64,000 nucleotides of DNA, taken from NCBI GenBank assembly GCA_027922465.2, contig BQMF02000297.1:124001-188000 (forward strand). Direction: 5' to 3'. This stretch comes from Turritopsis dohrnii (lineage: Eukaryota; Cnidaria; Hydrozoa; Anthoathecata; Oceaniidae). The first letter of the stretch is position 1; every line of letters begins with the position of its first letter. Of the stretch, positions 2,636-55,580 are shown piece by piece. The notes under the pieces were generated by a model that searched no databases, had not been told where the DNA came from, and saw only the letters and a list, made by a program, of their open reading frames with translations. The position numbers were made by a program, and so were the translations under genes.

Positions 2636-3868
2636 CTAAAAGATGCATATGAAAGATGCTGCAAAACCGTATGGGTACTCAGCAGGAAAACAACTATGAG
2701 GGAGAGAATTCCAGAGGTGAGCAGTCCAAGGAAAAAAGCTAGATGAATAAAAGTTCTTATGGCAAGTTGGGACCTGAACAGTCAAAGGATGAGAATTTGA
2801 AGAGAGGCGAGTGATCCAAAGAAAGTCTTAGGAGAAGGAGTCGGTTGATGCAAGTTATCCGAACAATGCCCATGAAAGTATTTATAGAAAAGAGACAGGG
2901 AAGCAACTTCTCTCCGATGTGAGAGGGGGTGAAGATTAGCACAAAGATCAGGGCCAACTAAGTTAACTAAGCCCTTCTGAATATGATCGAGAAGATGAAG
3001 ACAATGAGCAGAGGCTCCAGCTAAAAGGTGGAAGCAGTACTCAAGACAAGGGCGAATAGTGGCCTTAAACATGTAAATGATAGATTTAGCCGAAAGTAAG
3101 TGGCGAACCTGAAAAAGTGAGCCAACCTTCATAGCAGCAGATTTAGCAATGGACTCGATGTAAGAATTCCATGTGAAATTGTTTGTGAAGATTAAACTTA
3201 AAAGATGAACCTGAGATGACTCTGCAAACTCACTTCCATTCATAAGAACAGAAGGAATTACAGAGTCCCTGAAACGATTAATAGAGAGAAGCTTAGTTTT
3301 TGAAACATTGAAGGAAACCAACCATTTCTGACCCCATTCAACTACTGTCCTAAGATCGTCCTCCAACTCAGCAGCCATTTCAACCTTATCAAACAAGTCC
3401 TTAGTCCTTTCAAGAGACGAGTAAAGGGTAGTGTCGTCAGCGCAGATAGCAAGTTTACAGAGAATACAATCAGGAATACAATTGGACCAAGGACAGAACC
3501 TTGAGGCAGCCCTGAATTAATAGAGTAAGAAGAAGACGAATGACTATCGAGAACCACCTTAATACTCCTGCCACTGAGAAAGGACTTAATTAGATTCAAG
3601 AGTGAACCAGACATGCCATAAGACTTCAACTTGTGAAGAAGGCCACGATGCCAAACCTTGTCGAATGCCTTGGAGATGTCAAGAGCAATAGCTTGTGTCT
3701 CACCACAACCATTGAGGGACTGACATACACGTTCGGAGATGACGGTCAGAGCATCAGCAGTGGAACGACCAGAACGGAAACCATACTGGTGATCAGAGAA
3801 CAGATGATGAGATTCTAGATGATGGGTGATGGGAGAGTTGATCAATGATTCGAAGACCTTACTTGTAG
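2636..3868 (-). pseudogene. LINE reverse transcriptase, 3' part, frameshifted (CR1/L2/Jockey-like)
   Basis: Open frames at 3929-3342 and 3396-2782 together give a non-LTR retrotransposon reverse transcriptase without its endonuclease half. Visible motifs are QYGFRSGRSTADAL, LDISKAFDKVWH (motif A), SGLPQGSVLGP (motif B) and, after a frame change near 3450, CADDTTLYSSL as motif C. The thumb-like tail ends in WNSLP-type sequence, with a likely stop at 2636-2638. A cysteine replaces the usual Y/F/A before ADD. The upstream end is cut at about 3868, where it abuts a different LINE. Inactive fossil. Confidence 0.8.
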
Positions 3869-9218: not shown

Positions 9219-9780
9219 ATGTCGGATTGTACCAACGAAAATTTAAAAGTGAAGCATAAAAAGTACAGTGTTAAATTCAAGCAAGAGGTTGTTTCATATG
9301 CTAAAACAAATTCAGTAAATCCTGTTGCAACGAAATTTGGTATTCACCGGAAACTAGTTCAAGAGTGGAAGAAACAAGAAACACGTCTAAGTGATGTTGT
9401 GAATCCTAAAAAGCGTTTTCGTCTTGATGGAAATGGGCGTAAAATCTTGAATGAATTAGTTGAAGAAGGTGTGTTGAAGTTTTTCAACGAAATGCGAACG
9501 AAGAAGCTGCGCGTCACCAGAGGACGGTTGCGACACAAAGCACGTGAAATATATCTCCATGAAGTGGGAGGAGATGAAGATGAGTTTGTTGCATCAGAGG
9601 GGTGGATGTCAAAGTTCCTTGATCGCAATGGACTTTCTCTTCGCAGATCAACAACTGTGTGTCAAAAACCTCCAGCAGACTATATCGAGAAGATTCTGTG
9701 TTTCTTCATTTATGTCAGGTCGTTGCGAGAACGTTTTTCGTATCCAGATAACTGTATAATTGCATGCGATGAAACTGCAA
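9219..9780 (+). pseudogene. pogo-like transposase, N-terminal part
   Basis: Translation starts at the ATG at 9219 (MSDCTNENLKVKHKKYSV). Residues about 15-55 form a psq/CENP-B-type helix-turn-helix (KFKQEVVSYAKTNSVNPVAT). A CENP-B-type DNA-binding segment follows (VTRGRLRHKAREIY through SEGWMSKFLDRNGLSLRR). The DDE domain then begins at NCIIACDETA, containing the first catalytic aspartate. The frame then runs into foreign sequence and stops at 9815. The remainder of the gene resumes at 17932. The protein would bind the TIRs and cut and paste the element at TA. Confidence 0.85.
9709..9780 (+). repeat. 72-bp direct repeat, left copy
   Basis: Identical to 17932-18003, and part of the transposase coding sequence (starts TTTATGTCAGGTCGTTGCGA). 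The two copies bracket the 8.2 kb insert. Confidence 0.9.
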
Positions 9781-10662
9781 GATCATGCTTTGAAACATGT
9801 TATTATTTTTCGTGATGGTTAACGAAAACAAATCGACACTGAATGAGGAATATGTAACGTTTTCAAAGAGAATGGCCTGTTATGTTTTCATTAGATTATT
9901 AAGAAATAAGCAAGAGAAGCATTCTAAAGTATTTCTGTAGTTAATTTTTGCACAACTAGTATCAAAATTGGGCGCCCAAATTCGAGGCGCCCAAACTCGG
10001 TATACCGTTGTGGATTTCGGCCTCTATCAACCCCTGTTGTCATATGAGGTAAATGTTCGACCGTAAAAGATCAGCGAATGTTAGTAAAACAAAAGATATT
10101 TAAGACGTTCACACATGTGTGACCCTCGTTAATACAAAATGAAATTAACATTAACATTTCATTGTATCAAACAAAATTTTTGAGATCTATCATCATGGGG
10201 AAAGAGCATGCTTATTAAAATTTCTTTGGTAAGTCATTAAATCTCTTATGAGATACGACGACTTTTCACAAAGTTCTTGCGAACATGAGCAATATAAAAC
10301 ATTCGTTTTTTTTCGTGTTTTTATTAACACGATATTATCGATAAAGGAATAAGGAAAAGAAAAACAAAATATAGCGGTGAAGAACAGAATTTCTTTCAGA
10401 CATATTATAATTTTCTTTACATTCAGCCTCTATACTTCACATATGTACCAGAAATGTCTAGGCTAGACTCTTGAATACGACGTAGAGCGATGACCAATGT
10501 GAGCTGTGAAAATTTTGATGTTTTTCGTCGTTAATTTCGGAAGAAATTGATTGTTTCGCTTGAAGAGGATTCTGATTATATTTTACAATAAGAATCTAAA
10601 TGAAAATCTTAAAAAATGTAAAAAACGCACTTAAATTTCAGAGTTTAAACAGTTTATTTTTA

Positions 10663-11111: not shown

Positions 11112-11975
11112 ATGAATTAGATAACTGAAAAATAAACAGTTTCTTATTAACAATGAGGAGTAAAGAAACGAATCAATAAATTGGTTTTTCTATAACTGTA
11201 CACCTTTGTGTTACTACTTGAGTTCATTCTAATAATATAACATTACATAAAATGATTTTACATAGGAAAAATCACACTAATAACTTAATACTATCATTTT
11301 GTGACATGGGAAATTTTATGTTCTTATTAATTTATATGTTTGTTTTACTATTTCAGGTGTATAAATATTGCATTATCAATGTATGAATGAAGAGGAAATG
11401 TATAATTGTTGGACATCTTGTACACTTGAAACAATGGAAGGGCTGAACCAAAGATAGGAGTGTATAACTAATGTCAAAGTGAAGTGTTGAGCATTAACAG
11501 CCATGAGTTAAAAAAATAATACTCCGGAAACATTCATTCAAAGTTGTCTTCAATGATAATTCATTTGAAACGAACGACACATTAAAGCATATTTTAAATT
11601 GAATTTTCTTTGACTTATAAAGTTTCAATTAACAGAATGTTGATTGTCATCTCGGGTTAATGTAAACATTTTTGGAAAAAGTTTGGAAGATGCCTGTTGT
11701 ATTTCTTGTTGGTTTCAACTTCCTGGTCTTCTTTATATGATAATATTTGAGTGTGTATATATACTATTTACGCAGGATACTTTTACAACTGTGAGTGTCA
11801 AAACTTTTTGAATTTGTACTTATGTATTAAAAAACTGAAAATTATTGATTCATAAAGCATTTTGTTTTATCTTGTTATTCCTTCAGACTATCAAACCCAA
11901 CCACATTTTGACTATTTATATTTTGATATGCTAGTTACTTGATAATAAGGTGTTCATACATGAAAGTTGCTATGG

Positions 11976-12019
11976 CAGTACGGCATTGTTCCCGATATGG
12001 ATACCGTAGCCGTATCGGG
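11976..12019 (+). repeat. Left TIR of element A, 44 bp
   Basis: Exact reverse complement of 17551-17594. It contains TTCCCGATAT and CGTATCGGG words, and similar CCCGAT words occur in the TIRs of element B. Confidence 0.95.
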
Positions 12020-12202
12020 CTACAGTAACCGAATCCGGTTACGGGAAAGTTGCGGCAGATTTCGGTATCCCAGTTGGGCTACAGCCTCTCTAGTGACCAA
12101 AGATGTAACCCAATTAAGTTACTACGTGTTATAAAACAGATTGAATAAATTTTAGCAAAGCCTCATTCGCCGCCATGTGTATGAAGAGAAAGCACGCACA
12201 CG

Positions 12203-12799
12203 ATGGATAACGTTGTAACTATAGATCAATCTGCCATCAAAGGGTACCATAAGTTTAAAGTTTGCCCTCATGAGGAGGTCGAAATGATTGTTGAAGAAGA
12301 AAAGGGTAATGCATATGACCCTGATGCTATGATTATTAAAATGCCATCTGAAGAAAAGTATATTGATGGAAAGATACTCGATGCGGTTACACGTGAGGCA
12401 AAAGGAAGAGATTCGGAACAAACTGTTCGTTCAAACTTAGGGAAATCTGTAGGTAGAGTACCAGCAAACCTTGGAAGGATGTTCAAAGGTCTATTGTATA
12501 CTGGAGATATCAGCAAAATTGCATGTTTGTCTATTGGTAAGCCTACTACTAGTAAAAAACCACCAACACACCAGCCTTTCAATAAAAACAAACATGGAGG
12601 GAAAGACCAACGAGGAGGCGGAGCAATAATCCCTTGCCAATACAAATTGTATTGTAAATCAAGTGCAGCATACATACGAGTTAATGAGTTCATTATTTCG
12701 TCGTTACTGGAATTAGAAAATTACGATGGTACTGAGAAGGTTTTAGAAGTTCAAAAGAACAGTTTAAAAGATGTGCAAAATGTTTCTATGGAAAAGTGA
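12203..12799 (+). CDS. HIRAN-domain protein of element A
   Basis: 198 aa, single exon. Residues about 12-50 read as a HIRAN-like domain: IKGYHKFKVCPHEEVEMIVE, then GNAYDPDAMIIKMP. HIRAN domains bind DNA, notably 3' ends of single strands, and occur in SNF2-type repair helicases; here the domain stands alone. A conserved VGRVPANLGRMF segment follows at about 88-100. A C-terminal QRGGGAIIPCQY segment (about 138-150) recurs as VRGGDAIIPCVY in element B, so it belongs to the protein. It precedes the large gene on the same strand by 170 bp. A role in recognising transposon ends or nicked DNA is a guess from the domain. Confidence 0.75.
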   Translation: MDNVVTIDQSAIKGYHKFKVCPHEEVEMIVEEEKGNAYDPDAMIIKMPSEEKYIDGKILDAVTREAKGRDSEQTVRSNLGKSVGRVPANLGRMFKGLLYTGDISKIACLSIGKPTTSKKPPTHQPFNKNKHGGKDQRGGGAIIPCQYKLYCKSSAAYIRVNEFIISSLLELENYDGTEKVLEVQKNSLKDVQNVSMEK

Positions 12800-12971
12800 T
12801 TGTAATTAATAAAGGAACTTGTATTTTACTAAGAGTCGTGTTTAAGCTTGTCATACATGAAAGATATCGTTTTGTTTTCTATTGTTTCCCAAAATTTGCT
12901 ACTCTGAAATAATTTGAAATAATCTTATAATCACTTGATTTGCATTTTATTTTCAGAAACTAAATAATGAA

Positions 12972-15900
12972 ATGTTGAGAAAGAGCAAGCGCTTTAAACC
13001 TTACAGTCGAGGTAAGTTTCAAAAAGAATGTGGCTCTACAATCCACGATGCAGAGAATGATGGCAGTTACAAGATAGATCTGTTTACAAGAAAAAAAATC
13101 TCACGTATTGATTACAACGTTTTACTAGAGCGAAAAATCGTTAATGAACGAACACATTATGTATGCGAGAAATGTCTGGAGCTAGTCAAAAGTGCATTCA
13201 ATAAAGAAAAGATGGAAACGCAAAACCAAGTCGAAACAACTCCAATAAATTCATCGCCTGATAGCGAAACTGAAGCAAATTTGAATGACAACGTTATGGA
13301 ATTTTTTGACATTGGCACCGAATTGGGAAAGGTTATTCACCCAGACGTCGTACAAATCTTCAACGACAATGCCAAGATGAAAAAGATTAGTACTCTATTG
13401 AAATATGATCCACTACAATGGCTGTCTTCTCGTCCACCAGAGCTTGTACATTTAATTGCAAATCTATGCAACATTGATCTCAACACTGCACCACAAAATA
13501 AAGTTGTTGTTGTTGCCAAGATTGTGGAGTTGATATATTTTTGCAGGAACAGTAAATTGATTTTACCAAATCATTTTCATGAGAATTTGTTGAACTATTC
13601 CTTTACAAACAGCAAGACCATGTGCAATTTTTTGGGTTCCAGATCTCCTGCCGGTAGCAGTTCATACCTTTCGTCTTGGTTATCTGAGCAGGCACAAGAT
13701 CCTGTCCAATGCCCAAATGGATTTGTTAAAGCTGTATTTGATAATAATCAAAAAATCGGGAAAACGTATCTAATTACAGGAGATAACACTGTGCCAACAA
13801 GCGTTATGACAAGTAATATTTGGATTACTTTTGAAGAAGAAAACGATCTACAAAAAGATAAGACATATGCTCCAGAGCAATGGATGTGGAAAGAGATCAA
13901 CACCAATGACCTTGTGCAGAAAATTAGTTGCCCTAGTAATAAATTTAGTAAGGCAAGAGATTTATTTCTTAAAGACTGCATCAGTGCAGTCTATCAGCAG
14001 TTTTGTGATAATAAAGATTATATTGATGTAACCCTTGAACAGGAAGCTATAGCTGCCAAGGAGAAGATATGTTCTCTATGCGGCTGTGAGGCAGATATTT
14101 CATTCCGCGTATGTCGCAATTGTAAAGGTAAAGTCTCTAAGCAAGTAATACAGCCACCTATCACCCCAAAATTGCCCGAAGATCCGTACAAATGCTTCAA
14201 AACATACCCGCCAAAAGTAAGCAGTATAAAATGTAAGGCGGGAGAGCCAGACTTTGTGAACCCAAATAGCTTCCATTCAATTATCCAAGTAATTAGAAAC
14301 ATTGGGATACGAGCTGGAATCATTCAATACGGTGGTTCTGCAAGAGAATGGGCTCTTGTAGAATGTGATGGTCTTCCATACAATACCGTACGTGATATCA
14401 TCGCTAACGTATGGAAATGTAATACATGTGGGAAGTATTTCTACGAATTGTCTACATTCAAAGCACACAAATGTTTTCTTTTGTATTCTATCACAGCAGT
14501 TAGGGAGTTTGGATGGCTGATACCTGGTTTGTTACATTTAGAAATGAACACAGCAAAATCGTTTATGAAATTGAATTGGGAGGTTTTTACTAAGGACTTT
14601 GCAATTGAGTTTGGATTCAAGACACCGAAAGCTTTACAATACATACAAAAGGGATCAAATCACCATAAACTTTGGCATTTCATGGAAGTTACATACATGG
14701 CTTTAGGATTAGAGCTTGTTGTTCCTTATGTAAAGTACGCTTCCTCACAACATGAAATTCCAAACTTAACAGGGTACTGGGAATGGAGCTCAAAGGTAGA
14801 GAGCCCAAATTATTTGTATTTACAAGAAATGGTTACAACTTATCTACAAGCGTTAATGTTACTACGATCGGGAGCGAGGAAATGTAATGCAGAGGCAGTC
14901 CAGGATGCACTGGCTAAGTTGTCCCATCTAATTTTTAATCGAAACCACCCAATTTACCAGAACATATTGTATTCACACTGCAAAGATCAGAGCTTAATGC
15001 CAAATTCCCTAAAGGAAATTTTGGACAAATATGTCACTGGTAATAAGCATGGGAAGGAGCTCAAGAACCAAGGTGGGGACGCATTACTTGAGGAAGTAAA
15101 TAAGGAATCAAAATCCTGGTTACGAATGGCAGGTGTGCCCAGTGAAGAACAATGGATCAGGGTATTCAGAAATCTCGATAATTTGTCACAGGTAAGTCAA
15201 AAAAATAAGCTCTTTCGTTTTACTTAACAAAAGATACAACTAAAATAGATAAACTTTTTCGCTTTTCGTTTTACTTAACAAAACATAATAATAAATACAG
15301 CTAAAATAAATAAGCTTTTTCGTTTTACTTAAATGAATAAAAACAGTTATCGCCAGGAGACATTACTGAAACATACCCTGCCTACTTTCTGTGCTTTGGG
15401 CACAGGTAAGCATGTTTGCTTACAGGCACCCTCGGATTTATTACCAGTCCAACGCAACTAGCGTGCGCCCAGAACGGACAGTCTGTTTTGTCTGACTCTC
15501 CGTCACAACCAATCCACGTACTTTTCCTTTGGCCAATCTTCTTCCTGTGGATGTCATCTTCTTTAGACTTCCAAATTATTTTACAGATGTTGCATTTACC
15601 AGTAACTTTCTTATTTTTCGTTGTGGTTGTTGCCATTTTATTTTTGGAGGTTTTCAATGCTGTAGATGTAGCATCAGTGTTGTCTGGTGTACTTTTCTTC
15701 CCAGGTAAGTTTAACACTGGACTGCTACATGGCAGCCTTTCGCGCCTAAGTGCTTTAAGCTTTCTGGGGCTGTTAAAGTTTGTAATTGATTTGGATGTAG
15801 CTGCCCGGCGCTTTCCTCGCTTTCGTTTCCCAGATGTTAATAGTGTTTGGGTACCAGTAGTTTTCAGTCTCAATTTAGGTATTGTACAATAATGGTGTTC

Positions 15901-16567
15901 TTTACCATCTTCTGATTTCAAAGAAAGTTCCACAATTGCACCACACTTCATTTCTAATGTCTTTGCCTAAAAGTACAGGAAAAACAATGATACTACGAAA
16001 CAATATGTATAACAATATGCATATTAAGTATCTTTTCTATTTTAGCTAAAGAAGTCCCTTAACAAAGCCACAGATGAAAAATCTGGAAACTATAATAGAG
16101 ATAATGTACAGCTAATTAACAAGCTTCGATTGTTTGTCAGGAGGTCAGGTTACCTGAAAGATCCTTGGAAATCAAGTACACATACGAGTATTGATGGAAA
16201 GACAGAGTTGTCACAAAGTTTAGTAACCTTTCCAGACTGGGCTAAGAAGAATATTCTGAATTATGTCTTGAGCCGGACTAATAATGAAATACTTATCATG
16301 CCTATCATTCCAGTAACTGTTTCAGAAGAATCAAGTTGCAATATAATGGCAAATGTAACAAAAAAAGATTTAGCAGTGAAAATCTATGAAACACTGAAAA
16401 TGCTGCCACAAGAAGAGGCTCTAATAAATGAACAGTTATTTGAAAGTACAATAAAGAATAAAACCAAAGTTGCATATTTAGAGTTTCTTAACAAAATGTA
16501 TGAGCTTATTGATACAACCAACATCTGTGAAAGTGAAAGTGATGAAGAGAGTAACATTTTTTTATGA
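12972..16567 (+). CDS. Large zinc-binding protein of element A, candidate transposase (join 12972-15191, 16046-16567)
   Basis: Two exons give about 913 aa. The donor is CAG|GTAAGT at 15192 and the acceptor TTTTAG at 16045, phase 0. Features: an N-terminal cysteine pair (YVCEKCLELV, about 57-66); a zinc motif ICSLCGC with CRNCKGKVS (about 366-386); a zinc-finger-like WKCNTCGKYFYELSTFKAHK (about 481-500); then WLIPGLLHLEMNTAKSFMKL (about 515-535), GDALLEEVNKESKSW, EEQWIRVFRNLDNL and, in exon 2, SIDGKTEL. Each of these blocks from 366 on has a counterpart in element B. The PGLLHLEMN block recalls large repeat-encoded proteins of animals and fungi annotated only as domains of unknown function, possibly DUF6589. 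I cannot identify a catalytic triad. A splice-acceptor-like TTATTTTCAG just before the ATG, also present in B, suggests a spliced leader exon. Being the largest protein, it is the likely transposase, but this is inference. Confidence 0.75.
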
Positions 16568-17262
16568 CCATGCCTTTTGTACTCTTATATCTTTTTGAGA
16601 AGTATAAAAGTTAAAATTATTATACTACCTACGTTTTTCAGAATTGTTTTCTTTCGTTTGTAAAAGCATATCTGACGGGCTCTTCTGTTTTCAACATACT
16701 CATCACTTATTTTTCCGGTGTGGTGTTTTCGACGGACAGGAACTTCCACTAGAATAAAAATAAATCTACTCAGCAACACTGTCAAGCGAAATTTATATGA
16801 TTTCAATATGTCTACTTATTTAAAAGATTTATACCATGAATTAACCCATTGTTATCTTCATTATCATTTCCTGGCTCTGTACTGGATGATGATGATGAAT
16901 CATACTCAACTTCTGATGCTGATGATAATTCAGAAAATAAATCTTGCTCTACCAATACACCTCCTTCTTCGTTACAGTTTTGTAAAAGTTCCCTGTTGAC
17001 AATATTGTGATCCATTCCCATTGTATTTTGAGCAATTGATTGATCATCTCCTTCTTCCACTGTTGTTATATCATTAGACTCCTCCTCAAATGGCAATTCT
17101 AGTAATCAATAAACGAATGAGAATAAAAAAGGAAAGATAGTTCAAAGTTTTGATTACTAAGTAAACATTTAGGAAAAGTAAGTGAGTTTCCATACCTACA
17201 ATAAGTCCAGATTTTCTCAAGCAATCCAATGCAGACTGAATGTTGTTGTCGTTACTAGCCAT
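15382..17262 (-). CDS. Antisense PHD-like protein of element A (exons 17262-17196, 17098-16835, 16748-16633, 15966-15382)
   Basis: Four exons give 343 aa, opening MASNDNNIQSALDCL. Exon 2 is acidic (ELPFEEESNDITTVEEGDD and a serine/aspartate run). Exon 3 is basic (VPVRRKHHTGKISDEY). Exon 4 has KRKRGKRR followed by a C-terminal PHD-like finger: CNICKIIW, STWIGCDG, CPFWAHASC and CPKHRK (C2-C2-H-C type spacing). PHD fingers usually bind histone tails or serve in protein contacts, so a role in targeting chromatin is possible. The splice sites are GT-AG with phases 1, 1, 0, identical to the element B copy. Exon 4 lies wholly inside the intron (15192-16045) of the large plus-strand gene, so the two transcripts overlap in opposite directions. 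Confidence 0.75.
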
Positions 17263-17550
17263 TTTATTCTGATTTTTGTTTTAACTAAAAATCGAAAGTG
17301 AGAGCACATGCTTTCTTCCTTTACTTAACCAAGTTTTCGTGTCATACTAAAACTAAACGAGAATAGAAAGTGTTCCCGTCGGTGAATTTTCAAATCCGTT
17401 GGCAGTTTGGTTTAAAAAGTAATGGTCTCACTGCTTAACGTAAAACAACACCGCCCAACTTATAATTGATCTGCCCAAACATATTTGAAGTTATGAACAT
17501 GCATATTTATCCCGATCGGGTCACATTTGTAGCCTGATCTGGATATTTAT

Positions 17551-17594
17551 CCCGATACGGCTACGGTATCCATATCGGGAACAATGCCGTACTG
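17551..17594 (-). repeat. Right TIR of element A, 44 bp
   Basis: Exact reverse complement of 11976-12019. Further inside, 17510-17550 holds additional CCCGATCGGG and GATATTTATCCCGAT words that may be subterminal binding sites. Confidence 0.95.
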
Positions 17595-17599
17595 TATGG

Positions 17600-17931: not shown

Positions 17932-18844
17932 TTTATGTCAGGTCGTTGCGAGAACGTTTTTCGTATCCAGATAACTGTATAATTGCATGCGATGAAACTG
18001 CAATATGGTACGATGCTCTATCAAATTCAACAGTTGCTACTAAGGGTTCCAAAGAGGTTGCGGTGCGTTCAACTGGCCACAATAAAAACCGTATTACGGT
18101 CATGCTTTCTGCGAAGGGAGATGGGACCAAATTGAAACCATATATATTACTTCCACGAAAACGAGCAATGCCAGAACTCGTTAAAGCACATGGCGGTCGT
18201 GTAATACTGAAGTTTGAAGGTACAAACTGGATGAACCAGGAACTCATAGAAGATTATCTGCGCAGAGTAATTGGTGCCCCAATGTTCACGCCGGATCGTT
18301 TGTTAGTTTGGGATTCAAATGCCACATAAGTGAGGCCACGAAAACAGCTATGAAAAAGCTGAAGATTCACTCTGCAGTGATTCCTGGTGGATGTACGGGA
18401 TTTGTTCAAGCTCCAGATGTCTGCTGGAACAAACCTTTCAAGGATGTGTACACAAAGTGCTATGACGATTGGCTGGAAAGTGGTAAACAGGAATTTACAG
18501 CTGGAGGAAATCCTAAAGGTGCTCCGCTGGAAGAAATAGTTCGCTGGATCATTCATGCTTGGGATAGTCTATCCGCAAGTATGATTCCTGAATCTTTCAA
18601 AGTTTGTGGATTGACAAATAAATTGGATCAATCAGAAGATAATTTGATTTTGGTATTTAAAGAAGGAAAATGCTGCGAGGGGAAACTTGACGATTTCCGC
18701 GAAATGGTTGTGAATAACAAGGCTGATCTGGCAAATCCATTTGATATGATTGAAGAGATGCGAGAGGAAACGGTGGCAGAGGACGACGTTCATGATGACG
18801 ACGATTTAATTGTTGATGTCATCAGACATGATCATTGCTATTGA
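17932..18844 (+). pseudogene. pogo-like transposase, C-terminal part
   Basis: It starts with the second 72-bp repeat and continues the DDE domain: CDETAIWYD (first Asp), NKNRITVMLSAKGDG, LLVWDSNA (second Asp) and, after a small deletion that shifts the frame near 18325, PGGCTGFVQAPDVCWNKPFK (third Asp). The protein ends in an acidic tail with the stop at 18842-18844. All three acidic positions seem present, so apart from the frameshift and the insert the gene would be a normal pogo transposase. Confidence 0.85.
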
Positions 18845-34875: not shown

Positions 34876-34901
34876 GGGTCCGTACTCCTTGGACGAGATG
34901 C

Positions 34902-35648
34902 CTAAGTTCTTAAGGCTACGATAAGAGTTTCTACATGGTCATATGTACGACGAAGGTTGACAGTGTCATCAATGGCTTTGACTGAGCCACCCAAGCAAAG
35001 GGCTTTCATGTGTGATGATATCAGTACCTGAGTATCACCAAAGCGTTTTTGGAGAAGGTCTAAAGCTTCCTTGTAATTATCAGACGTAAGTGTGTAGCCG
35101 GAAACGGTTTCAGCGGCTGTTCCGCGAAGGTACGACTTCAAGTAAGTGAATTTCTGTATGCATGGTAATGTTGTGTTGGAGTCGATGGTACACATGAAGG
35201 AGTCGTAAAACATTTTCCATTCTAATGGATCCCCAGAAAACGTAGGGATGTCCAGTTTTGGCAACTTTACATTTGTGCTTGCCACAGATGAGGCTGTCTC
35301 TGACAAACCAAGTGATGAGGTAGCGACAGAGGTATTCTTGGCAAGAATTTTCTTCAATTTAACACAGTTTTTCTTAACCAGTGTTTTGAAGCCGAGATGG
35401 GCTTTGACTTGTTTTTCAATAGCTGCTGCATCATCTTCCGAAAGAAGTTCCATAATCTCATCATTAATACCATTAATGTTTTCTAACTCAGTATCAAGTA
35501 TTTCGAGGTAACTTTGCACATCAGATATTTGTTCCTCGGTCAAGTTCTCAGATGGCAAAGCATCTATGGCTGCGATGGTGCCATCGTTCAAGGTTTTTCG
35601 AAGTGCGTCGAAAGTAGCAAGTTTCTTCTTAAGTAAACCAGCAGACAT
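34902..35648 (-). pseudogene. BEL/Pao gag
   Basis: Starts MSAGLLKKKLATFDALRK. It has a helical N-terminus and the DUF1759-type block LPKLDIPTFSGDPLEWKMFY (about 130-150) followed by YLKSYLRGTAAETV. The frame stops at 34902, while pol continues in another frame directly after VETLIVALR. One lost base near 34920 would explain this. Family members usually have one continuous gag-pol frame. Confidence 0.9.
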
Positions 35649-44368: not shown

Positions 44369-44659
44369 CAGTTTGGGTCACTAGCTAAAATGTGCAGTAA
44401 CTTCCCGATGAGGAAGTTCTTCCCAATATGGTAGTTTTTCGTCTACCCGATAGTGCAACGGCTACCCAATTTGATAGCAAATTCGAACTAAGTGGATCTG
44501 CGGAGCACAATACTTTTCAGCGCATTTTTTAACGACGATAAATAGATGCTGCACAAAAAAGAAGCTCATCTCACCAAAGACAAAATTTTTTTACCACGGC
44601 TGGAATCCACAACTCTTTTTTGTGTTACACGTGTGGTGCGTGCTTACCTTCTCAGGAGA

Positions 44660-47491
44660 ATGGCAGAAGAAATACAAGTATCTGGTAATATTACCTATTT
44701 TCTGGCTGTATTTTTTAGTTGTTGAGACATCATCTTCATCATCTCTTCGTTATTTAGGAAATAGAGGGAGAAAGAGTAAACACATGTCATTTTCCTCCTT
44801 TATCCTTTTATTTATTACAGGTAATGACTTTTCTTTCTTCAACTTCCTAAATGAAGTTGAACTGCCACTGGAAGAAAATCCATTACAACAATTAGCAGAT
44901 GTTGCATCTAAAGCCAACACTGGTTGCTGTACACCTCATGTGGAAAGGGGGCAAGAAGAGGCAAATTTTTTCCCAACTAACGAGATGTATGATGAACAAG
45001 AAGCAGAAAACTTTACTTGCACAGTCTTTGAAGAAGAAATGGACACCCAACATGCCCAATGTGAAATGCAAGAGGAACTTGTGCTGTCAGATGAAGAAAT
45101 TGACAGCACAGGTCTGTATATATACACTGTATATACTGTTTATGTTATACTAGTATCCCGTGTAAAAACATTTTACAGGTTTTTCTGAAAGTGACATCTC
45201 AAAAATGGTGTCGAAAAATAAAATCACAGCAAGTACTTTAAACTTTAAATATAGGAGCGCAGAACAGTCGTTTTACTTGGATGGAAGATCTTAAATCCAT
45301 CAAAAATTAAAATACGCGCTGTGCATCCGCTTTTTTCACTCTGTAAAATAAATTTATTGAAGATGCAATGCAATGGTTCCCGTGATGAAAATACTTAACG
45401 TCAATATATAATACGGAAAAAAACACTTCTCACTCTTTTAATTAAAAATCTCTAGGTATTCCAGCCAAAGCATTTTTAGTTCAACACTGGAGTTATGAAC
45501 AGAAAAACTTTTTAATCAGAAGATCTGAAACACATCAAAATATTCATAATAAATCTTTCACGATACGATAGTACGATAGCAGTAGTAAAAATAAATTGTG
45601 CGTACAGGTAAACAACAAAAAGATTAAAATCGCTGTAACTGTTCATGGAATTCATACTGTAAATAAAAGCCAAACGCGAAAGTCGTAAAAGTGTCAAAAT
45701 GTGAATTGTAAACAATTGCGATTTTCTTTACGAACCCAGAACATCATGATTAAACACCATGATATTCATTTCTTCAATCGCGTATTATTGGAAAAGTAAT
45801 GACGCAGAAACCCTATTCATACTATAAGAAAAACAAAACACAAAAACAAAAAGTTCTAAAGCGTACTTACCCTAAAAACATTAATAAATCTTCGTGCAAA
45901 ACTTTCGTTGTTGTCTATTGTTTCTTGATCTCGCGAATAATCAAAAAACGATCAAATGCAATGCAATGTTTTCCCCTTATACTAATGGTAGAAAAATATT
46001 AACTGCCGTGGTCTGACACTCCATTATGAATAAGTGACCGCAAAAACGACCCGAAATTTTAAAAAGTGAAAGCGTGAAAAAAGCGGATGCACAGCGCGTA
46101 TTAGTACATAGATGATCTGCGATAGCAGCAAAATATATATAGGATTTTAAACATGATTAACAAATATTGCTGTTACCATAACACAAATAGTGTTGCTTTA
46201 TATTATACTTTAAATTTCAGGTAATAAGATGAGATCAAATCATCACAAAGGTCCAATGCCATTGTACTTCATAGAGGATGCAAAGAAGAGACAGACATCT
46301 TTTTCCAGATGTTCAAGAACAATAATATCTTCGGTGGGTGTGCTTTCATAAGTGTGTTTAAATGAACATTGTAACAAGTTCCCCATAATATCAACACCAT
46401 GTTGTATCCTCATTGTTATAATCAACAGCATCATTATGAAAATCTTGCAAGTCAGAAAGGTCTTTTAAAAAGTCAATATATACACTTTTATTCTGGTTCT
46501 TTACTTCTTTTTTGAAATAATCTATGTAAAGCTGCTTTTCATGTTCATTCATAGTGTCAATAATTGTGTAGATTTGTTGCATTAGTTGTTGTTTTGTATG
46601 CCCTTGAAACTTTTCTTGTTCTTCTTTTTCTTGTTGTGTGATACAAACAATATGCTGGGAATAGGGCTCTTTCTTCAACATTTTTGAAGCATACTCCTAA
46701 TAATTTTTTTGTGTGGTTGATGTAAAATTTACCAGGTCAGATGCTAACTCTGTTTTTCCATCCAAGCCTAGATGACTGGCTTTCAATTTGGGGAATGATA
46801 AATAATGCTTTGAACGAAGAAGCACTCGGACTGTTGCCACCTCTTTTCCAATGTTCGTCTTTTCTGTGATTTTATCTGTCTCATTTGAATCTGCAACTCC
46901 AGGTTCTTGTAAAGTTTTTTCTCTGATCTAAAGACATAATTAACTTTTTTGATTCATGTTTCAGAGTCAGCGGCTAGCACAAAGGACTGGTGCCACTATC
47001 CGTGTTTACATCAAAAGTCCTGACAGTAGCTTGGAAAAGAAATTTGCATCAAACCCATTAAAAAAAAGAAGTGTCATGTCCCAAGCTGGAGAACCGTGTC
47101 CACAGCTTCGCAAAAAAAGGTCTGTTGGCCAAAGAGTTATTGGGAACCATATGACTCCCACAAAAAAATTTAACAACAAAACGAATTAATAAAAATCGTA
47201 CTACAGCTGTTGTCAAACACCCTAATCCAGCTTCAGAAACCAAAAAATCTCGCATTCAAAGAATAACAGCAGCTCTTCCAGGGAAGAAAGTGAAGTCAAA
47301 TTCTAAATTACCCAAATGCAAAAATAAACGCGAAATATGCAGTGTAATTTATGGATCTACAGCTGATAAAAACCTGTCAAAGAAATATAAAGGAAGAAAA
47401 AACCCATGGAATGCATGCACGATGTGTTAATTTGAAAATGTCAGGGAAAACTGATAAAATTCCATTTTCATGCCCAAGGCATGATGATTAA
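44660..47491 (+). pseudogene. Antisense PHD-like gene of element B (44660-44684, 44857-45111, 46221-46333, 46965-47491)
   Basis: Homologue of the element A antisense gene. Exon 1 opens MAEEIQVS. Exon 2 has VELPLEENPLQQL and an acidic run. Exon 3 reads NHHKGPMPLYFIEDAKKR, where A has KHHTGKISDEYV. Exon 4 starts SQRLAQRTGATIRV and ends in a decayed finger (REICSVIY, PWNACTMC, FSCPRHDD). Intron phases are 1, 1, 0 as in A. A Helitron sits in intron 2. Exon 4 has frame breaks near 47187 and 47430 and lies inside the intron of the opposite large gene. Confidence 0.7.
45150..46112 (-). mobile_element. Non-autonomous Helitron, 963 bp, inside element B
   Basis: Minus strand: A then TCTATGTACTAATACGCG (46112) to a TAAAATGTTTTTACACGGGATA-type hairpin, CTAG (45153-45150), then T. 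Same family as 27570-28535. It lies in intron 2 of the antisense gene. Confidence 0.85.
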
Positions 47492-48132
47492 GATACACTA
47501 TTGTTATGAAGTGTCTAACTTTTAGTTTAGAAAAGATTTATATTTCTTAAAAGTATGTATGCCTTTTATGGATGTATATTGTTTTGTTAATATTTGTTCT
47601 AATTTTTATGTTTGTTTTTAAAAAAGAAAAAGAAAGCATAGTGTAATCATATGCAGCATAAGGAAAGATATTTTTGTTGTTATTCATTTATATATGTTAT
47701 AATGTCCTTACCTCATCTAAAGAATCCAAATTTCTGAAGCTTCTTTGCCATTGGCTTTGAGTGGGAACACCAATCACCCACTTTTTTCCTTGCTTGTTGA
47801 TTTCTTCGATCAATGCATCCCCACTTTGGTAGTGTCCAGATTTCCACTGCAACTCATAGTTAATGCAGAATGCATACAAGTTCTGATTTCCTTCGGGGTT
47901 ATATATTCCATTCTAAAATCGTGACTTACTATCTCTTGATAACATGGATGGTTTCGGCCAAAGAAAAATAGTGCTAATTTACTTTTTTCAGCTAAGATAG
48001 GTGTTGACTGCCCATATCGGACCCCTCTTCTGAGCATCATAAGTGTGTGTACAAATGTAAAAATTGCTTGCTGACTATATTCATAATTAGGATTTTCTGA
48101 TGAATAATTCCAGTAATCAGAAACTGTTGGGT

Positions 48133-48166
48133 CCCCCCCCCCCCCCCCCCCCCCCCTTTTTTTAAA
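48133..48166. repeat. 34-bp poly-C tract
   Basis: Uninterrupted C34 followed by T7, inside the decayed coding region of element B. Striking in this AT-rich setting: either slippage or an assembly artefact. Confidence 0.95.
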
Positions 48167-49057
48167 GTGTCCCTAACATACGGCAAAAGCAACTCATCTG
48201 CCATAGCTAAATAAGTGATTTCGAGTGTCTGCTATAACTTGTGGTGATCACTTCCTTTGTGTATGTATTTCAGAGCGTTTTCAGATGTAAAACCTAATGA
48301 TTTGCAAATTTCCTGCATAAAGACTTCCCAGTTACAAGCCATGAATGCCTTTGCTGCACACATCTCAAAATGAAGCAAGCCAGGTTGTGGAACAATCCAA
48401 TCAAATTCGTGTACGTAGAATGCTCCGTTCAATACCTTGCAGATATGCTCTTCAAAAGCTGATAGACCGTAAAGCACTTCATCACACTATTGGCACTTTA
48501 TTACATTAAAAATTAGTTTCAACAGTATAAACATGATTCCACCGTCGTTTTCTAAAAGAATCCAATGATGTTTCTTTTCCGAAGGGTTATTTAAGATACC
48601 AGCTCTTATATCAATATTGTCGATGATACTGGCAATGTTTTCAAAACTGTTAGGATTAAGAAAGTCTGGTTCACCAACCTGGACACTTGTGTTGTTTGTA
48701 TTGATTCCAAACTGAAAATGGCTGTACGGATCCAAATTCCTAGATGAAGTTCGAGAGTTTATTTGAATATTGGGTACCTTCTGTTATATCTACGCCGCTA
48801 GGCGTACCATCTTTGTGTAAACATATATGAAAGATCAGCTAGTCTGGCTTTAGTATAAACAAGTTAAGATGGCACCTGAGATCTACAGCACGTTTTGTCA
48901 GAAGATAATAATAAATCCGTATAAAGTGAAGTCATCTTATATTAAATATCAAATATAACACTGGCGACGAGTCCGCAAACGAACCCAGGTATCACATTAC
49001 AGTATATTTCAAGATTCTCACGTGAATCAAGACGTTAAAACACTTCGTATATAAAAC

Positions 49058-49672
49058 ATGTCACTGCAAATGCCCACCATCGCACCATTCGATCCGGTAG
49101 GGGACCCAAACACAACAGCACAGCGTTGGGAAAAGTGGATCAAGTCATTTAATTATTTCATCGTCGCTTCAGGCATCGGAGATGACACAAGAAAAAGAGC
49201 ACTCCTCCTACATTTAGCAGGACGACCCACACAAGAAATCTTTGAAACTCTGCCAGATAATGGTGAAACATATGAGGAAGCATCGGATTCCCTGAATAAC
49301 TACTTCAAGGTGCAGAAGAATATACCTTACGAACGATCAGTATTTCGAAATGCAAGGCAGGAAAATTACGAAAGCATTGACCAGTTCGTCACCAGGCTTC
49401 GAAAACTGTCCATGTACTGTGAATATGGACAAAGCACAAATGAGCACATAAGAGATCAAGTCATCGCCTCCTGCAGCTCTTCAAAATTCAGAACCAAGTT
49501 ATTGGAAAAGAGAGATCTCACCCTTGACGATGTTCTGGAATTAGGCAAATCACGCGAAGCTGCTACACATCAGGCCAAACAAATGGAAGCAACATCGTCA
49601 CAAGCACCACTCACCGCTCAAGTCAACAAAATCTTTTCACCATCGAACTACAAAGGCCGGGGAAAATTTTGA
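49058..49672 (+). CDS. Gypsy gag
   Basis: 204 aa from MSLQMPTIAPFDPVGD to a TGA at 49670-49672. It has the retrotransposon gag core (WEKWIKSFNYFIVASGIGDD; LHLAGRPTQEIFETL; FVTRLRKLSMYCEYG). The frame stays open after the TGA through zinc knuckles into pol. So the stop is either a nonsense change or a natural read-through site; sequence alone cannot tell. gag packages the RNA in particles. Confidence 0.9.
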   Translation: MSLQMPTIAPFDPVGDPNTTAQRWEKWIKSFNYFIVASGIGDDTRKRALLLHLAGRPTQEIFETLPDNGETYEEASDSLNNYFKVQKNIPYERSVFRNARQENYESIDQFVTRLRKLSMYCEYGQSTNEHIRDQVIASCSSSKFRTKLLEKRDLTLDDVLELGKSREAATHQAKQMEATSSQAPLTAQVNKIFSPSNYKGRGKF

Positions 49673-52600
49673 TTTCAGGACGGACACCGAACACCAAACC
49701 ATCAAGCACATCACCCTCAACCAAAACAACAAAATCGAACACAAAATGCACACAACCGACATCATTATCCACGGTCGAAAGCAGCAGTTTCAACGCAAGG
49801 CAATAACACATGTAGCCGTTGTGGTGCAACAGGACACAGAGGACATGAGTGTCGTCGCTCTCAAGGTGTCCACTGTAGTGTGTGCGGCAAAACAGGACAC
49901 TTTTGGAAAATGTGTTTTCAAAACAAACGAAAAACTGTAAACAGCATCAAACAAGACGAAACCACACATTCTGAAAGCGGATCAGAAAGTACTGAGGAAG
50001 AAATAAACAACTTTTACGTGTTCGCTATCAACGACAGTCCCACATTTCCGATCTTGATCAACAAAACTAAAGTGGATGCACTGATAGACTCAGGCTCCTC
50101 CATCAACATCATCAACAATTCTGTTTGGACCAAAATGAATCCACAACCAAATCTTTCGCCAACAACCACAAAAATCTACCCATATCAAGCCACAAAGCCG
50201 TTACCTGTTGCAGGAAAATTCACCGCTGTCGTCCGGGCCAAAGACAAATTTGTGAACACCACAATCTTCGTCGTCAAAGGAAAGGGAAAGACAATACTCA
50301 GCAAAGCCACTGCAGAAACATTAGAGCTACTTCGTGTCGGGCCACCAGTTTCACCATCCGTCATCAACACGATTCAGTCCACCTCAAGCCTACAAGCGAT
50401 ACTGGAAGAAAAGAAAGACGTTTTTGAAGGACACAGGCTCCTGAAGGACACTGAAATTAAATTACACATTGATGAAACTGTACCACCCAAACAGCAGCCT
50501 ATACGAAGGTTACCATGGCACACTCGACAAAAAGTTTCTGAAGAATTAGTCCGTCTAAAAAAATTGGACATTATTGAACGTTATGATGGTCCCACCACCT
50601 GGTTAAACCCTTTTGTCATTGTTCCACGTCGATCAAGCGATCAAATGCGATTTTGTATCGACATGAGGAAGGCAAACGAGGCCGTCATTTGTGAGAGACT
50701 TGTAATTCCCAAATTTGATGAAATCCTTCCAGAATTACACAATGCCACCATTTTCTCCAAAATAGATCTTTGTGAAGGCTACCATCAACTCATGTTACAC
50801 CCTGACAGCAGGGACATCACAACCTTTGCAACACATGACGGCATTTTTCGGTTCAAGCAGTTGTTTTTCGGTATCAGCAGTGCCTTTGAAATCTTCCAGA
50901 AAAAGATTGAGCTAGTGTTAAATGGATGTCCAGGTGCCAAAAATATTTCAGATGACATCCTCGTTTGGGGTTCGACAGAGGAGCATCACAATCAAAACCT
51001 CAAAACCGTATTACAGCGCCTGCAAGATCATGGTCTTAAGCTCAATCGTAACAAATGCACATTTGGAGTCAGTAGCCTAATATTTGCCGGACATCAATTA
51101 ACACCGATGGGAATCGCACCAGAGTCCATGAAAACCGAAGCAGTGCAGCACATAGCCCAGCCACGCAACGCATCCGAAATTCGTTCGTTCTTGGGACTAG
51201 TCACATACTGCAGCAGATTCATCAAGAACTACGCAACAATCTCAGAGCCTCTGCGTCGTTTGACTAGAAAGAAAGAACCATTCATCTGGAATTTGGAACA
51301 ACAAACAGCATTTGACCGGCTAAAAGAAGCACTACAGAGTCCGGAAGTAATGGCATACTATAATCCAAATGTCAAAACCACCATCATCGTCGACGCGAGT
51401 CCAGTGGGTCTTAGAGGTATTCTGACACAAGAACAAGCAGATGGAGTGTACAAAACAGTTAGCTATGGGTCCAGATCACTGAAAGATGCCGAAAGTCGAT
51501 ATAGTCAGACCGAACGCGAAGCCCTTGCCCTTCTTTGGGCTTTAGAACATTTTCACTATTTTATCTTCCATTTGCACGTCACAATCATAACCAACCACAA
51601 GCCGCTAACCTCAATGTTGTCCTCAAATTCACAACCTCCTCCAAGAATTCAGCGCTGGCTCCTAAAACTCCAGGCCTATGAGTATGACATCAAGTACGCA
51701 CCAGGTTGCAAAAATGCCGCAGACATCTTATCACGTTCTCCAACTGACAATTTTGTAGACACATCAGACACTGAAAACTACATCGCAATGGTAACGTCTC
51801 ATGCCGTGCCCGTCAATGTAGACCTGATGAAAATCGCCGCAGAAACAGCAAAAGATTCGGTCTTGTCCTCCATCATCACAAGCATCTCAACCGGCAAATG
51901 GGACATGAAACGTCAAACCCCATACTCAAATATCAGGAGCGAGCTCTCGATTGGTTCACAAGGTATCTTACTGAAAGGCAATGTCATTGTCATACCACAG
52001 AGATTACGAAAAGATTTACTTGACATCGCACACCGACAACACCAAGGAATGACACGAACAAAAGCCTTACTCCGAGAGAAAGTTTGGTGGCCAGGAATCG
52101 CCTCCGACGTCGAAAGATTAATCGCAAGGTGTCCAACCTGCCAATTAACCACATCGTTGGCTAAACGAGAGCCACTACAAGCAACCGTAACGCCAGCCGA
52201 ACCGTGGAACACTGTCGGGGCTGATTTGAAGGGACCCCTGCCATCCGGAGAACACATTCTCGTACTAATAGACTATAACACGCGCTACCCAGTTACTTTT
52301 GTCATGAAAAAAGGCGTCGGCTCTCAGCAAATCATTCGCAAGCTCACCAAGTCGTTTTCTCTGTTTGGATTTCCTACGACAATCATCACGGACAATGGGC
52401 CACAGTTTGTGTCAGTCGAAGTCGAAGAGTTTCTCACCTCACACAATATCGTCCATCGCACTGTTAGCCCGTATTGGCCGCAAGCTAATGGTGAAGTCGA
52501 GAGGTTCAACCGCACACTCGGTAAGGTCCTCCGGTGCGCCTATGTAGAAAGAAAAGACTGGAGACTAGAACTCGACAAGTTTCTACTCAGTTATCGTACA

Positions 52601-52870
52601 ACACCACACACAGCAACGGGAAAAGCACCGGCCGACCTGATGTTTCAACACAAACCCAAAAATGATATTCCTCGCTACGACAACGCCAACCACAAAAAGT
52701 TGCTCAACACCTACCAACAAAACATGAAAGCGCAATACGACACCAAACACCACGTAAAAGCGAGAGAACCATTTCAAGTAGGAGACACCGTAATTATAAA
52801 GAATTTCCGTCGCCGCTTCAAAATGGAACCGTACTACGAGATAAAACCGTACAAGATCTCGAAAGTATAA
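49673..52870 (+). CDS. Gypsy pol (zinc knuckles, protease, RT, RNase H, integrase)
   Basis: In frame with gag: two knuckles CSRCGATGHRGHEC and CSVCGKTGHFWKMC (49811-49915); protease ALIDSGSSINII; RT with SKIDLCEGYHQLMLHPDSRD and DDILVWGSTEE; RNase H DASPVGLRGIL, SQTEREALALLWALEHF and TNHKPLTSML; integrase HRQHQGMTRTKALLREKVWW with CPTCQ, then GADLKGPL, ITDNGPQFVS and YWPQANGEVERFNRTL; C-terminal DTKHHVKAREPFQVGDTVII. In the RNase H, TDHKPL is TNHKPL, replacing a residue normally a catalytic aspartate. The frame stops at 52868-52870 within the C-terminal domain. Confidence 0.9.
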   Translation, partial: FQDGHRTPNHQAHHPQPKQQNRTQNAHNRHHYPRSKAAVSTQGNNTCSRCGATGHRGHECRRSQGVHCSVCGKTGHFWKMCFQNKRKTVNSIKQDETTHSESGSESTEEEINNFYVFAINDSPTFPILINKTKVDALIDSGSSINIINNSVWTKMNPQPNLSPTTTKIYPYQATKPLPVAGKFTAVVRAKDKFVNTTIFVVKGKGKTILSKATAETLELLRVGPPVSPSVINTIQSTSSLQAILEEKKDVFEGHRLLKDTEIKLHIDETVPPKQQPIRRLPWHTRQKVSEELVRLKKLDIIERYDGPTTWLNPFVIVPRRSSDQMRFCIDMRKANEAVICERLVIPKFDEILPELHNATIFSKIDLCEGYHQLMLHPDSRDITTFATHDGIFRFKQLFFGISSAFEIFQKKIELVLNGCPGAKNISDDILVWGSTEEHHNQNLKTVLQRLQDHGLKLNRNKCTFGVSSLIFAGHQLTPMGIAPESMKTEAVQHIAQPRNASEIRSFLGLVTYCSRFIKNYATISEPLRRLTRKKEPFIWNLEQQTAFDRLKEALQSPEVMAYYNPNVKTTIIVDASPVGLRGILTQEQADGVYKTVSYGSRSLKDAESRYSQTEREALALLWALEHFHYFIFHLHVTIITNHKPLTSMLSSNSQPPPRIQRWLLKLQAYEYDIKYAPGCKNAADILSRSPTDNFVDTSDTENYIAMVTSHAVPVNVDLMKIAAETAKDSVLSSIITSISTGKWDMKRQTPYSNIRSELSIGSQGILLKGNVIVIPQRLRKDLLDIAHRQHQGMTRTKALLREKVWWPGIASDVERLIARCPTCQLTTSLAKREPLQATVTPAEPWNTVGADLKGPLPSGEHILVLIDYNTRYPVTFVMKKGVGSQQIIRKLTKSFSLFGFPTTIITDNGPQFVSVEVEEFLTSHNIVHRTVSPYWPQANGEVERFNRTLGKVLRCAYVERKDWRLELDKFLLSYRTTPHTATGKAPADLMFQHKPKNDIPRYDNANHKKLLNTYQQNMKAQYDTKHHVKAREPFQVGDTVIIKNFRRRFKMEPYYEIKPYKISKV

Positions 52871-53259
52871 CTTGTAGCGTGCAGCTCACTCAAGGCGGAA
52901 AAAGAGTCGTTCGCAACAACATACACGTCAAAAAGTTTTTCCAGCCAGTAAGCCGCCATGTCTCTCAAACACCTACAACAACAACTCCAAGAACCGTAGA
53001 ATCAACCAACATCACCATGTTCGACATCATGCCGGATAGCGATTTAAATGACTCACACACTGATTCAGAAATCGAAAGCAGAGATACCGACGATGAAGAA
53101 AGTTCCGATGACACCAGGCCGTATAATGAAGAAGATGAGGAAAGTTCTGATGACACCATTCCATATAATGTAGAAGAACAGGAAAGTGAGAGAAGTGACG
53201 ATAGACCGAAAAGGGTCAGGAACACTCCCAAACACCTGACAGACTTTGATCTTACTTAG
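52871..53259 (+). CDS. Gypsy pol C-terminal tail, frameshifted
   Basis: QLTQGGKRVVRNNIHVKKFF is the usual pol end following the chromodomain-like region, here in the +1 frame relative to pol. An acidic low-complexity tail with two DEESSDDT repeats follows, ending LTDFDLT. A one-base change near 52866 explains the break. Confidence 0.75.
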
Positions 53260-54759
53260 AAGAACTCATAAACCCCCGAAATTAAGACACATAACTAGTG
53301 TTTTGTGAGGGTTTCATGGACATCTTTATTGACATTAGTTGTTTTATTTACTTTATTTTGAGAAAAGAAGGGGTGTTATATCTACGCCGCTAGGCGTACC
53401 ATCTTTGTGTAAACATATATGAAAGATCAGCTAGTCTGGCTTTAGTATAAACAAGCTAAGATGGCTACCTGAGATCTACATCAAGTTTTGTCAGAAGATA
53501 ATAATAAATCCGTATAAAGTGAAGTCATCTTATATTAAATATCAAATATAACACCTTCAATCTTCCAGAACAATTTCTACAAGCTCGATAACGCGGATCA
53601 TTTGGCGCATCACCATCAAGACAAACCTTTATGGATGCAGCTTCAACTTTTTTTGTGACAATTGCATCTACCTCATCACTGAAAATTCCGTTTGTACAAA
53701 GTTGTTCAGATACCAACACTGATATTCTTTGCTTGATGAAATTATTACATGATTCACGAAAGTAATCTTGATGTTTTGAAGTGTAATTTACAAAACTTTC
53801 TTTTTCATCATTACTCAGATCTTTGAACAGCCAGTTACCTGGTTTCAAATTCACATTATTCTGAATGGTATCTGAACTTATTGTGAGATATGCATGACTC
53901 GTAATGACACTTACTGGAACAGTATTACAATCAGCTTTTACAGAGTACCTTTTTCCAACTACCTGTTCATTGTCAAACACTATCCTGACAACGCCTTCTG
54001 GTACCTTAAATTCTTCTCCAGCCTGTTCTGATAACCAATTCTTCAGATACGAATATGATCCAGCACCCATAGTCTCACCATTAAAATTGAGCAGCAACTT
54101 GCTGTTGGATAAAAATAGGTTAGAAGATTATGCTTAAACGCCAGGGGCAACACAATTCTTGCATGTCCTGCAGAATATATTTTTTGGATGCACTTGTTCA
54201 TTAAGTAAATAGCTTTTTCATCTTTTACATTCAAGCAACATATCTCTTCCAAAAACTTCACCAGTTGCTCTGGTCTTGCATTCAACCAATCCCGTGCGTT
54301 GTATTCTTTAACGTTTTCTAATTTAGAGCAGAACTTTTGTTTAAACAAAATGTTTACATCTTCAGTAATTTGACGTTTCAACGTTGCATAGGAGTTTTCA
54401 GAGACATCAGAACATTTGGTAACAAATTCATGTTCTGAAGCACAATCTGGACTGCTCTTTTTGGTTGCTGCTTGTACACAGCTCTTGCATATATATAAGG
54501 TTTTTTTGCTCAGTAAATTTGAATTATATAAAATGGACAAGTCTGTTGCAGAAATTCTTTTGCAGTGTTTTATGTTAATCAATAAACTTTCGTTTGCTTC
54601 ATGGATTAAACACCCACATTTCTTTGCAAATATTCCAGATTCATCCCTAGATTTTGTTTTCTGTTTTTGCCTAGTGTTCATTTTATCTAAAAAAAAAATT
54701 TAACAACACCATATGAATGAATATGGATGAAAAAATAACACATTCTCCTGACGCAAAAT

Positions 54760-55377
54760 TTATTCTACTATTATTTCTGTACATTCTTGTTCAGATAAGC
54801 ACTCTTTGATATACATTAAAACGTCATCATGGATCTTCTCGTCAACTTCTATTATGTAAACACAGGGTATGATTGCGTCTCCACCCCTCACATCAGGTCC
54901 ATAAGGGTTGGAACGAAACTTCTTGTGCACGTGGGGTTTCTTGCTGTGCTGAGGACTTTCAACAATTTTGCTAAATATATGATAAGCGACAAAATTTACA
55001 ATAACTTCATCAAGGTTAATGATCTACAGAGATCTATGGAACAATACAAATTAAATACTTACCAGGTTGTTGTTATGGACCAAATGTTGTGCAAGTCTCT
55101 AAATAACTTGCCCAAATTTTCTGGCACTCTCCCAACAATTTTATCGGCAATTTGTTTAACATTTTGAGCAGACTGCCCTTTCTTTTCTTCTCTTGTTATT
55201 TCGTTATGAAGTTCAGTTGGAATATCAATTAGTTTCGGCATTTTTACTAACATAGCAAATACATCATATATCGTTTTCATTCTCGAGAACCAACTTGATC
55301 TTAGGATGAGGCTTCACACGAAAAATGTGATATCCTTTTATGCAACTATTTTGCACTAATATCGTCTGAGAACCCAT
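54760..55377 (-). pseudogene. HIRAN-domain gene of element B (55377-55063, 54971-54760)
   Basis: Opens MGSQTILVQNSCIKGYHIFR. The HIRAN domain continues in another frame (YDVFAMLVKMP) after a one-base shift near 55280. KIVGRVPENLGKLFRDL matches VGRVPANLGRMF of A. Unlike A, an intron (donor GTAAGT at 55062, acceptor TTTAG at 54972) precedes the C-terminal VRGGDAIIPCVYIIEVD. Confidence 0.7.
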
Positions 55378-55580
55378 ACTACACCCAAATAAGTCACTGA
55401 AACGAAGCCGGGGGTTTATATAGTAATAGTACAAACTTTCTGATCGGGACATTAATTGAATAATAGGTAATGACTTCCCGATCGGAAGATTCTCAACTTT
55501 GTAAAATCGCCAATAACCCGATCGGGAAGTGACTTCCCGATAGAACAGTTACTGCACATTTAAGCTAGTGACCCGAACTG

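Follow-up and report, generated by a model that had tools for sequence, protein, structure and literature searches.

How does a DNA transposon recognise its own ends, and does element A do so with the genes of a superfamily already named? Element A lies in a stretch of 64 kb of DNA, the whole of which was analysed and which we call the window. The first-pass annotation had described it as bounded by 44-bp perfect inverted ends, with TATGG on either side as a 5-bp TSD, and as carrying three uninterrupted genes for a HIRAN protein, a large zinc protein and a PHD protein, a trio for which it knew no superfamily.

The borders agree with that description. The arms of element A (11976-12022 and 17548-17594) are 98% complementary across 47 nt with 1 mismatch, the outer 44 nt match perfectly and TATGG abuts both ends (Table 1). 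In our judgement chance is far from explaining a 44-bp perfect inverted pair with a 5-bp direct repeat abutting it. A second, related element in the window, element B, is flanked by TAAAA, giving a 5-bp TSD in both of the two elements tabulated in the 64 kb. With up to 5 mismatches allowed over its first 22 bases, the element A TIR was found nowhere else in the window, and a looser pattern returned ends at a frequency not above chance (10 vs 6.5 expected). The perfect TIRs and open frames make recent mobility of element A plausible.

Rfam gave no match anywhere in the window at gathering scores. A 75-bp direct duplication (9709-9783 and 17932-18006, 98.7% identical), located in what by eye are pogo/Tigger-like transposase pieces, flanks 8.1 kb that hold element A; it is far too long to be the TSD of this element. 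Elsewhere in the window, and all on the minus strand, we noted by eye LINE-like reverse transcriptase fragments (2782-4585), a BEL/Pao-like gag-pol (30217-35648) whose open frame spans 1552 aa and Helitron-like protein fragments (61411-62939).

The claim of three uninterrupted genes stood for one of them. The HIRAN gene is an intact open reading frame and the HIRAN fold of its product is supported; the protein had no match among PDB sequences, and its alignment gave one weak, unrelated row against the PDB. The large gene has two predicted exons, and the reading frame annotated as a PHD gene (15382-15951) falls within the final one of the four predicted exons of a gene with a MADS box, so that a simple PHD gene is rejected.

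Table 1. Features of elements A and B, in coordinates of the window.
Feature	Position	Strand	Remarks
Element A	11976-17594		TIR-bounded DNA transposon
Left TIR of element A	11976..12019	+	44 bp, perfect, start CAGTACGG
Right TIR of element A	17551..17594	-	partner of left TIR
TSD TATGG, left copy	11971..11975	.	direct reading
TSD TATGG, right copy	17595..17599	.	direct reading
Left CC-N6-GG (CArG-spaced) cluster	11991..12078	.	starts 11991, 12010, 12029, 12035, 12069
Right CC-N6-GG cluster	17511..17579	.	starts 17511, 17533, 17551, 17570
HIRAN protein gene	12203..12799	+	198 aa, intact ORF
Large gene exon 1	12972..15191	+	candidate transposase; predicted GT donor at 15192
Large gene exon 2	16046..16567	+	homologous stretch in element B
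MADS-PHD exon 1	17196..17262	-	predicted, GT-AG
MADS-PHD exon 2	16835..17098	-	acidic region
MADS-PHD exon 3	16633..16748	-	first part of MADS box
MADS-PHD exon 4	15382..15966	-	remaining MADS box, PHD-like finger
Element B	44369..55580	-	decayed relative, TIR CAGTTYGGGTCACTAGCTWAAATGTGCAGTAACT, TSD TAAAA, Gypsy-like LTR element splits it
Element B MADS exon	46221..46333	+	first part of MADS box
Element B MADS remainder and degraded PHD-like stretch	46965..47490	+	broken by stops
Element B large-gene exon 2	46433..46927	-	between two MADS exons

The four-exon gene runs from 17262 to 15382 with predicted GT-AG borders at all introns, and the 343-aa version of its product was picked out of six open exon combinations. 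The spliced protein matches the SRF-TF profile (PF00319) over positions 1-48 of 48 with E 6.6e-10 and 38.7 bits (cut-off 26), which places it among proteins with this DNA-binding domain. Its four PDB rows at E ≤0.1 are MCM1 (0.0026), SRF (0.004 and 0.0051) and SEPALLATA 3 (0.04). The border between exons 3 and 4 splits the MADS box, and the last exon scanned alone showed no MADS. While the PHD-like finger that had been claimed for the third gene is present, the MADS box had been overlooked, and the partner protein combines the two: an acidic stretch is followed by the MADS box and then by the finger. The finger stays under the Pfam PHD cut-off (17.3 and 15.5 bits vs 24) and by eye has the Cys/His pattern Cx2Cx25Cx8Cx4Hx2Cx17Cx2H. 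Judged by these profile scores, the MADS box is the best supported domain of the predicted protein. Searched as a whole against about 5.8 billion predicted proteins, MADS-PHD gave 1636 candidates, none of them at E 0.001; a gene of small exons would probably be missed by simple gene calling. Literature combining a MADS-box, a transposase and a HIRAN domain was not found within a coverage that leaves out most subscription journals, and among the papers returned for HIRAN domain and transposase none was, by its title, about such a transposon.

The two main genes are antiparallel and interleaved. MADS-PHD exon 4 sits in the large-gene intron (15192-16045), and large-gene exon 2 sits in MADS-PHD intron 3. 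The same arrangement is found in element B, which was detected on the opposite strand by tblastn of the element A proteins against the window. Its inverted ends (CAGTTYGGGTCACTAGCTWAAATGTGCAGTAACT) are alike at 32 of 34 bases, start at 55580 and 44369 with CAGTTYGGG and are each abutted by TAAAA. Element B retains HIRAN and, at 26 to 53% identity to element A depending on the piece, both large-gene exons, and by coordinates its large-gene exon 2 again lies between two MADS exons, so that the interleaved antiparallel order holds for two of two elements. When the MADS exons of element B are joined, SRF-TF is the only Pfam family at E ≤1 (E 0.0018; 18.1 bits, below cut-off), and BLASTP aligns the MADS stretches of the two elements at 5e-10 with 18 of 66 positions identical (27%). 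A PHD-like remnant, interrupted by stops, is visible by eye behind the MADS box. Since element B has the same genes in the same antiparallel interleaving, gene set and layout have been inherited by two strongly diverged elements. It is highly improbable, and we reject the idea, that a single copy picked up its MADS-PHD gene by chance as a piece of a host gene: this would fit a whole protein without relatives in the protein search, but in element B the gene occupies the corresponding position in the same antiparallel interleaving, with the MADS matches just given. It would be unusual for the genes of a transposon to be held together by antiparallel partners interleaved in each other.

Two insertions or repeats were seen within element B. 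Direct repeats at 48782-48961 and 53374-53554, probably LTRs, flank a gag-pol (49058-52870) that we call Gypsy-like from its residues. A repeat of about 1 kb inside the MADS gene (45120-46110) resembles, by eye, about 57500-56540, past the other end of element B.

Does element A hold sites that a MADS protein might bind? Its two 150-bp ends contain nine CC-N6-GG motifs against a shuffle mean of 1.39, a count reached in 0 of 1000 shuffles; the whole element has 17 and the 64-kb window 72. Spacers of 2, 3, 4, 7, 8, 9 and 10 are not enriched at the ends (0, 0, 2, 1, 0, 0 and 0), and the enrichment of spacer 5 (8) consists mostly of CC-N6-GG sites read one base in. The sites begin 16 bp inside each end and follow one another at 18 to 22 bp, save around 12035 (6 and 34 bp). 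Two of them are common to both TIRs and are therefore not independent. Nowhere in the window but at the two ends of element A do three or more such sites fall within 110 bp. The longer pattern TANCCN6GGNTA, extended after the repeats had been seen, occurs six times in 64 kb, five of them at the ends of element A (shuffle mean 0.017). The nearest known shape to these sites is that of the yeast Mcm1 site, TTACC-N6-GGTAA. In element B the excess at the ends is weaker for N6 (3 vs 0.61, reached in 28 of 1000 shuffles) and stands at 5 vs 0.57 for N5 (0 of 1000). Strict boxes of SRF or MEF2-like type were sought and rejected: element A has no CC(A/T)6GG and no CT(A/T)6AG, and an A/T-only core is absent from all nine terminal sites. 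Dimers of MADS proteins recognise the CArG box (consensus CC(A/T)6GG), from which natural sites frequently deviate (PMC6019531). The clusters at the ends of element A have the spacing of MADS-protein sites and are putative binding sites.

Such sites could also be read differently. MADS-PHD might do no more than regulate element or host transcription, with the transposase recognising the ends and CC-N6-GG serving as transposase or promoter sites. This would suit MADS proteins, which are transcription factors, and the cores of the element A sites, which are not A/T-only; ProtoRAG offers a precedent, the transcription factor YY1 acting at its TIRs (PMC7481187). We nevertheless regard this as unlikely: the clusters stand at both ends, 16 bp inwards, and not at a single promoter, and the MADS gene has been retained in two diverged elements.

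The large gene is the candidate for the transposase. With its two exons joined by a predicted splice it encodes 913 aa without a stop, and at least 26 relatives were found in public data at E ≤0.001, with 36 to 63% identity. Viral and prokaryote contigs yielded no confirmed relatives. An alignment of the element A protein with every relative except P0026, 25 in all, bears out the claim of a large protein with zinc. The zinc ribbon C367/C370/C381/C384 is conserved in 24 or 25 of 25 rows, and a CxxC...HxC finger (C483, C486, H499, C501) in 24 of 24 rows at each position. This finger lies just behind D466 in VECDG (24/24 rows); D257 in VFDNNQ and E524 are each conserved in 23/23 rows, and of the 26 rows 10 extend to the EE at 707-708, whose two positions are kept in 8 and 9 of them. 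From this conservation D257-D466-E708 would be the candidate catalytic triad, with E524 as alternative third residue. The structure model of the protein is poor (pLDDT 61, pTM 0.42), too poor to reveal an RNase H-like DDE fold even if there is one, and at E 0.001 the fold search matched nothing in the PDB or the viral library. The 50 VIA fold rows listed are ribosomal zinc-ribbon and adenylate-kinase chains at about residues 345-400, with no transposase among the matches listed; from this model, the fold searches appear to support only a small zinc ribbon.

DUF6589 (PF20231) is matched by 21 of the 26 alignment members at E ≤0.1, best 2.8e-9. Among five relatives scanned singly, P0001, P0002, P0013 and P0020 reach its cut-off and P0025 stays below, the best stretch covering only part of the 410-position profile; the element A protein itself is under the cut-off (18 vs 27 bits). 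Pfam lists the function of DUF6589 as unknown. The large protein matched no Pfam transposase model, and its PDB profile search listed no transposase among 13 rows. There was no hAT Pfam model for element A at E ≤1 or for the 26 members at 0.1, and the Pfam and PDB hits included neither a model nor a chain of RAG1, to which a distant homology may still exist. NCBIfam gave weak ClpX rows only for the element A protein and no rows for three relatives. The Pfam searches of the large protein and the members returned no named transposase. It is possible, though somewhat doubtful, that element A belongs to a superfamily already named in Repbase, in which case what is new would be confined to the MADS gene and the interleaving. 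Repbase lists about 20 superfamilies, and some known lineages carry accessory genes (PMC9587614); the large protein, too, has relatives in public data, at least 26 of them. On the other hand, the 26 members match 16 Pfam families at E ≤0.1, DUF6589 being the commonest and a named transposase not among them, and no literature with DUF6589 was found, most subscription journals lying outside the coverage.

Element A is apparently an intact DNA transposon with a likely transposase, a DNA-end-binding protein and its own MADS-box gene. Taken as a whole, we favour with some reserve the explanation that it is an autonomous cut-and-paste transposon, of a group unmatched to a named superfamily, in which MADS-PHD pairs the ends for the DUF6589-related transposase. 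The 913-aa protein would cut and join. MADS-PHD would dimerise and bind the CC-N6-GG clusters in and behind both TIRs, and its dimers would mark and pair the ends for the transposase; it may also control transcription starting at the termini, and its PHD-like finger could anchor the complex on chromatin. Free 3'-OH ends would be held by the HIRAN protein, as they are by the HIRAN of HLTF, and integration would proceed by a 5-bp staggered join, consistent with the TSD of two elements out of two in the window. This points to a mobile element that finds its own ends by means of a borrowed type of developmental transcription factor. More tentatively, and with less than even confidence, we propose an undescribed superfamily in which the MADS, acidic and PHD protein recognises the ends. 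The RAG1/RAG2 plan, in which a transposase has an antiparallel partner that reads chromatin and the TSD is 5 bp, would then have evolved a second time without relation to the first, here with HIRAN guarding the 3' ends and the main genes locked by reciprocal exon-in-intron nesting. If true, end recognition can pass to a dimeric developmental-type transcription factor, as the MADS box in two strongly diverged elements with terminal sites would imply; part of DUF6589 would gain a likely function, and the RAG1/RAG2 parallel could be used for testing the role of PHD partners in transposases.

Transposon-encoded DNA-binding helpers are familiar from other groups: PIF/Harbinger has a transposase and a Myb-like protein, and in CACTA/Spm TnpA binds subterminal repeats. 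Element A shares with them such a helper and repeated subterminal sites, whereas its helper is MADS-PHD, its TSD is 5 bp, not 3, and it has no Pfam transposase match. The 3-bp TSD given for PIF/Harbinger in PMC2213677 excludes that group for elements A and B. Kolobok has TTAA TSDs and, in some lineages, a zinc finger that follows the second catalytic residue and precedes the third (PMC9587614). The large protein likewise has a finger after the second conserved D, but TATGG and TAAAA are not TTAA and Kolobok is excluded. Dada differs in its TSD of 6-7 bp (PMC3706591), and the large protein has no Pfam sequence match to Kolobok, Dada, hAT, P or the MuDR group. DUF6589 is also close, matched by most members as given above, though over part of its profile only in those scanned singly. 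A further parallel is with RAG-like (RAGL) transposons. These, like Transib, have a 5-bp TSD. Their RAG1L and RAG2L genes are convergent, RAG2 comprises both an acidic hinge and a PHD finger, and the Transib/RAG-like TIR resembles the RSS heptamer, CACTWMC... (PMC7204232). Elements A and B have the same TSD length, and element A the same pairing of a transposase gene with an antiparallel partner that, like RAG2, has acidic and PHD or PHD-like parts. Unlike those of Transib and RAG-like elements, their TIRs start with CAGT (CAGTACGG and CAGTTYGGG) and are not CACT-like; the partner in element A has a MADS box, and a kelch domain was not found in it; there is no RAG1-like Pfam or PDB sequence match, and there is an extra HIRAN gene. 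Because of the different TIR start and the lack of a RAG1 or kelch match, we do not file element A under RAG-like transposons, whose two genes lie tail to tail while the exons of element A are interleaved.
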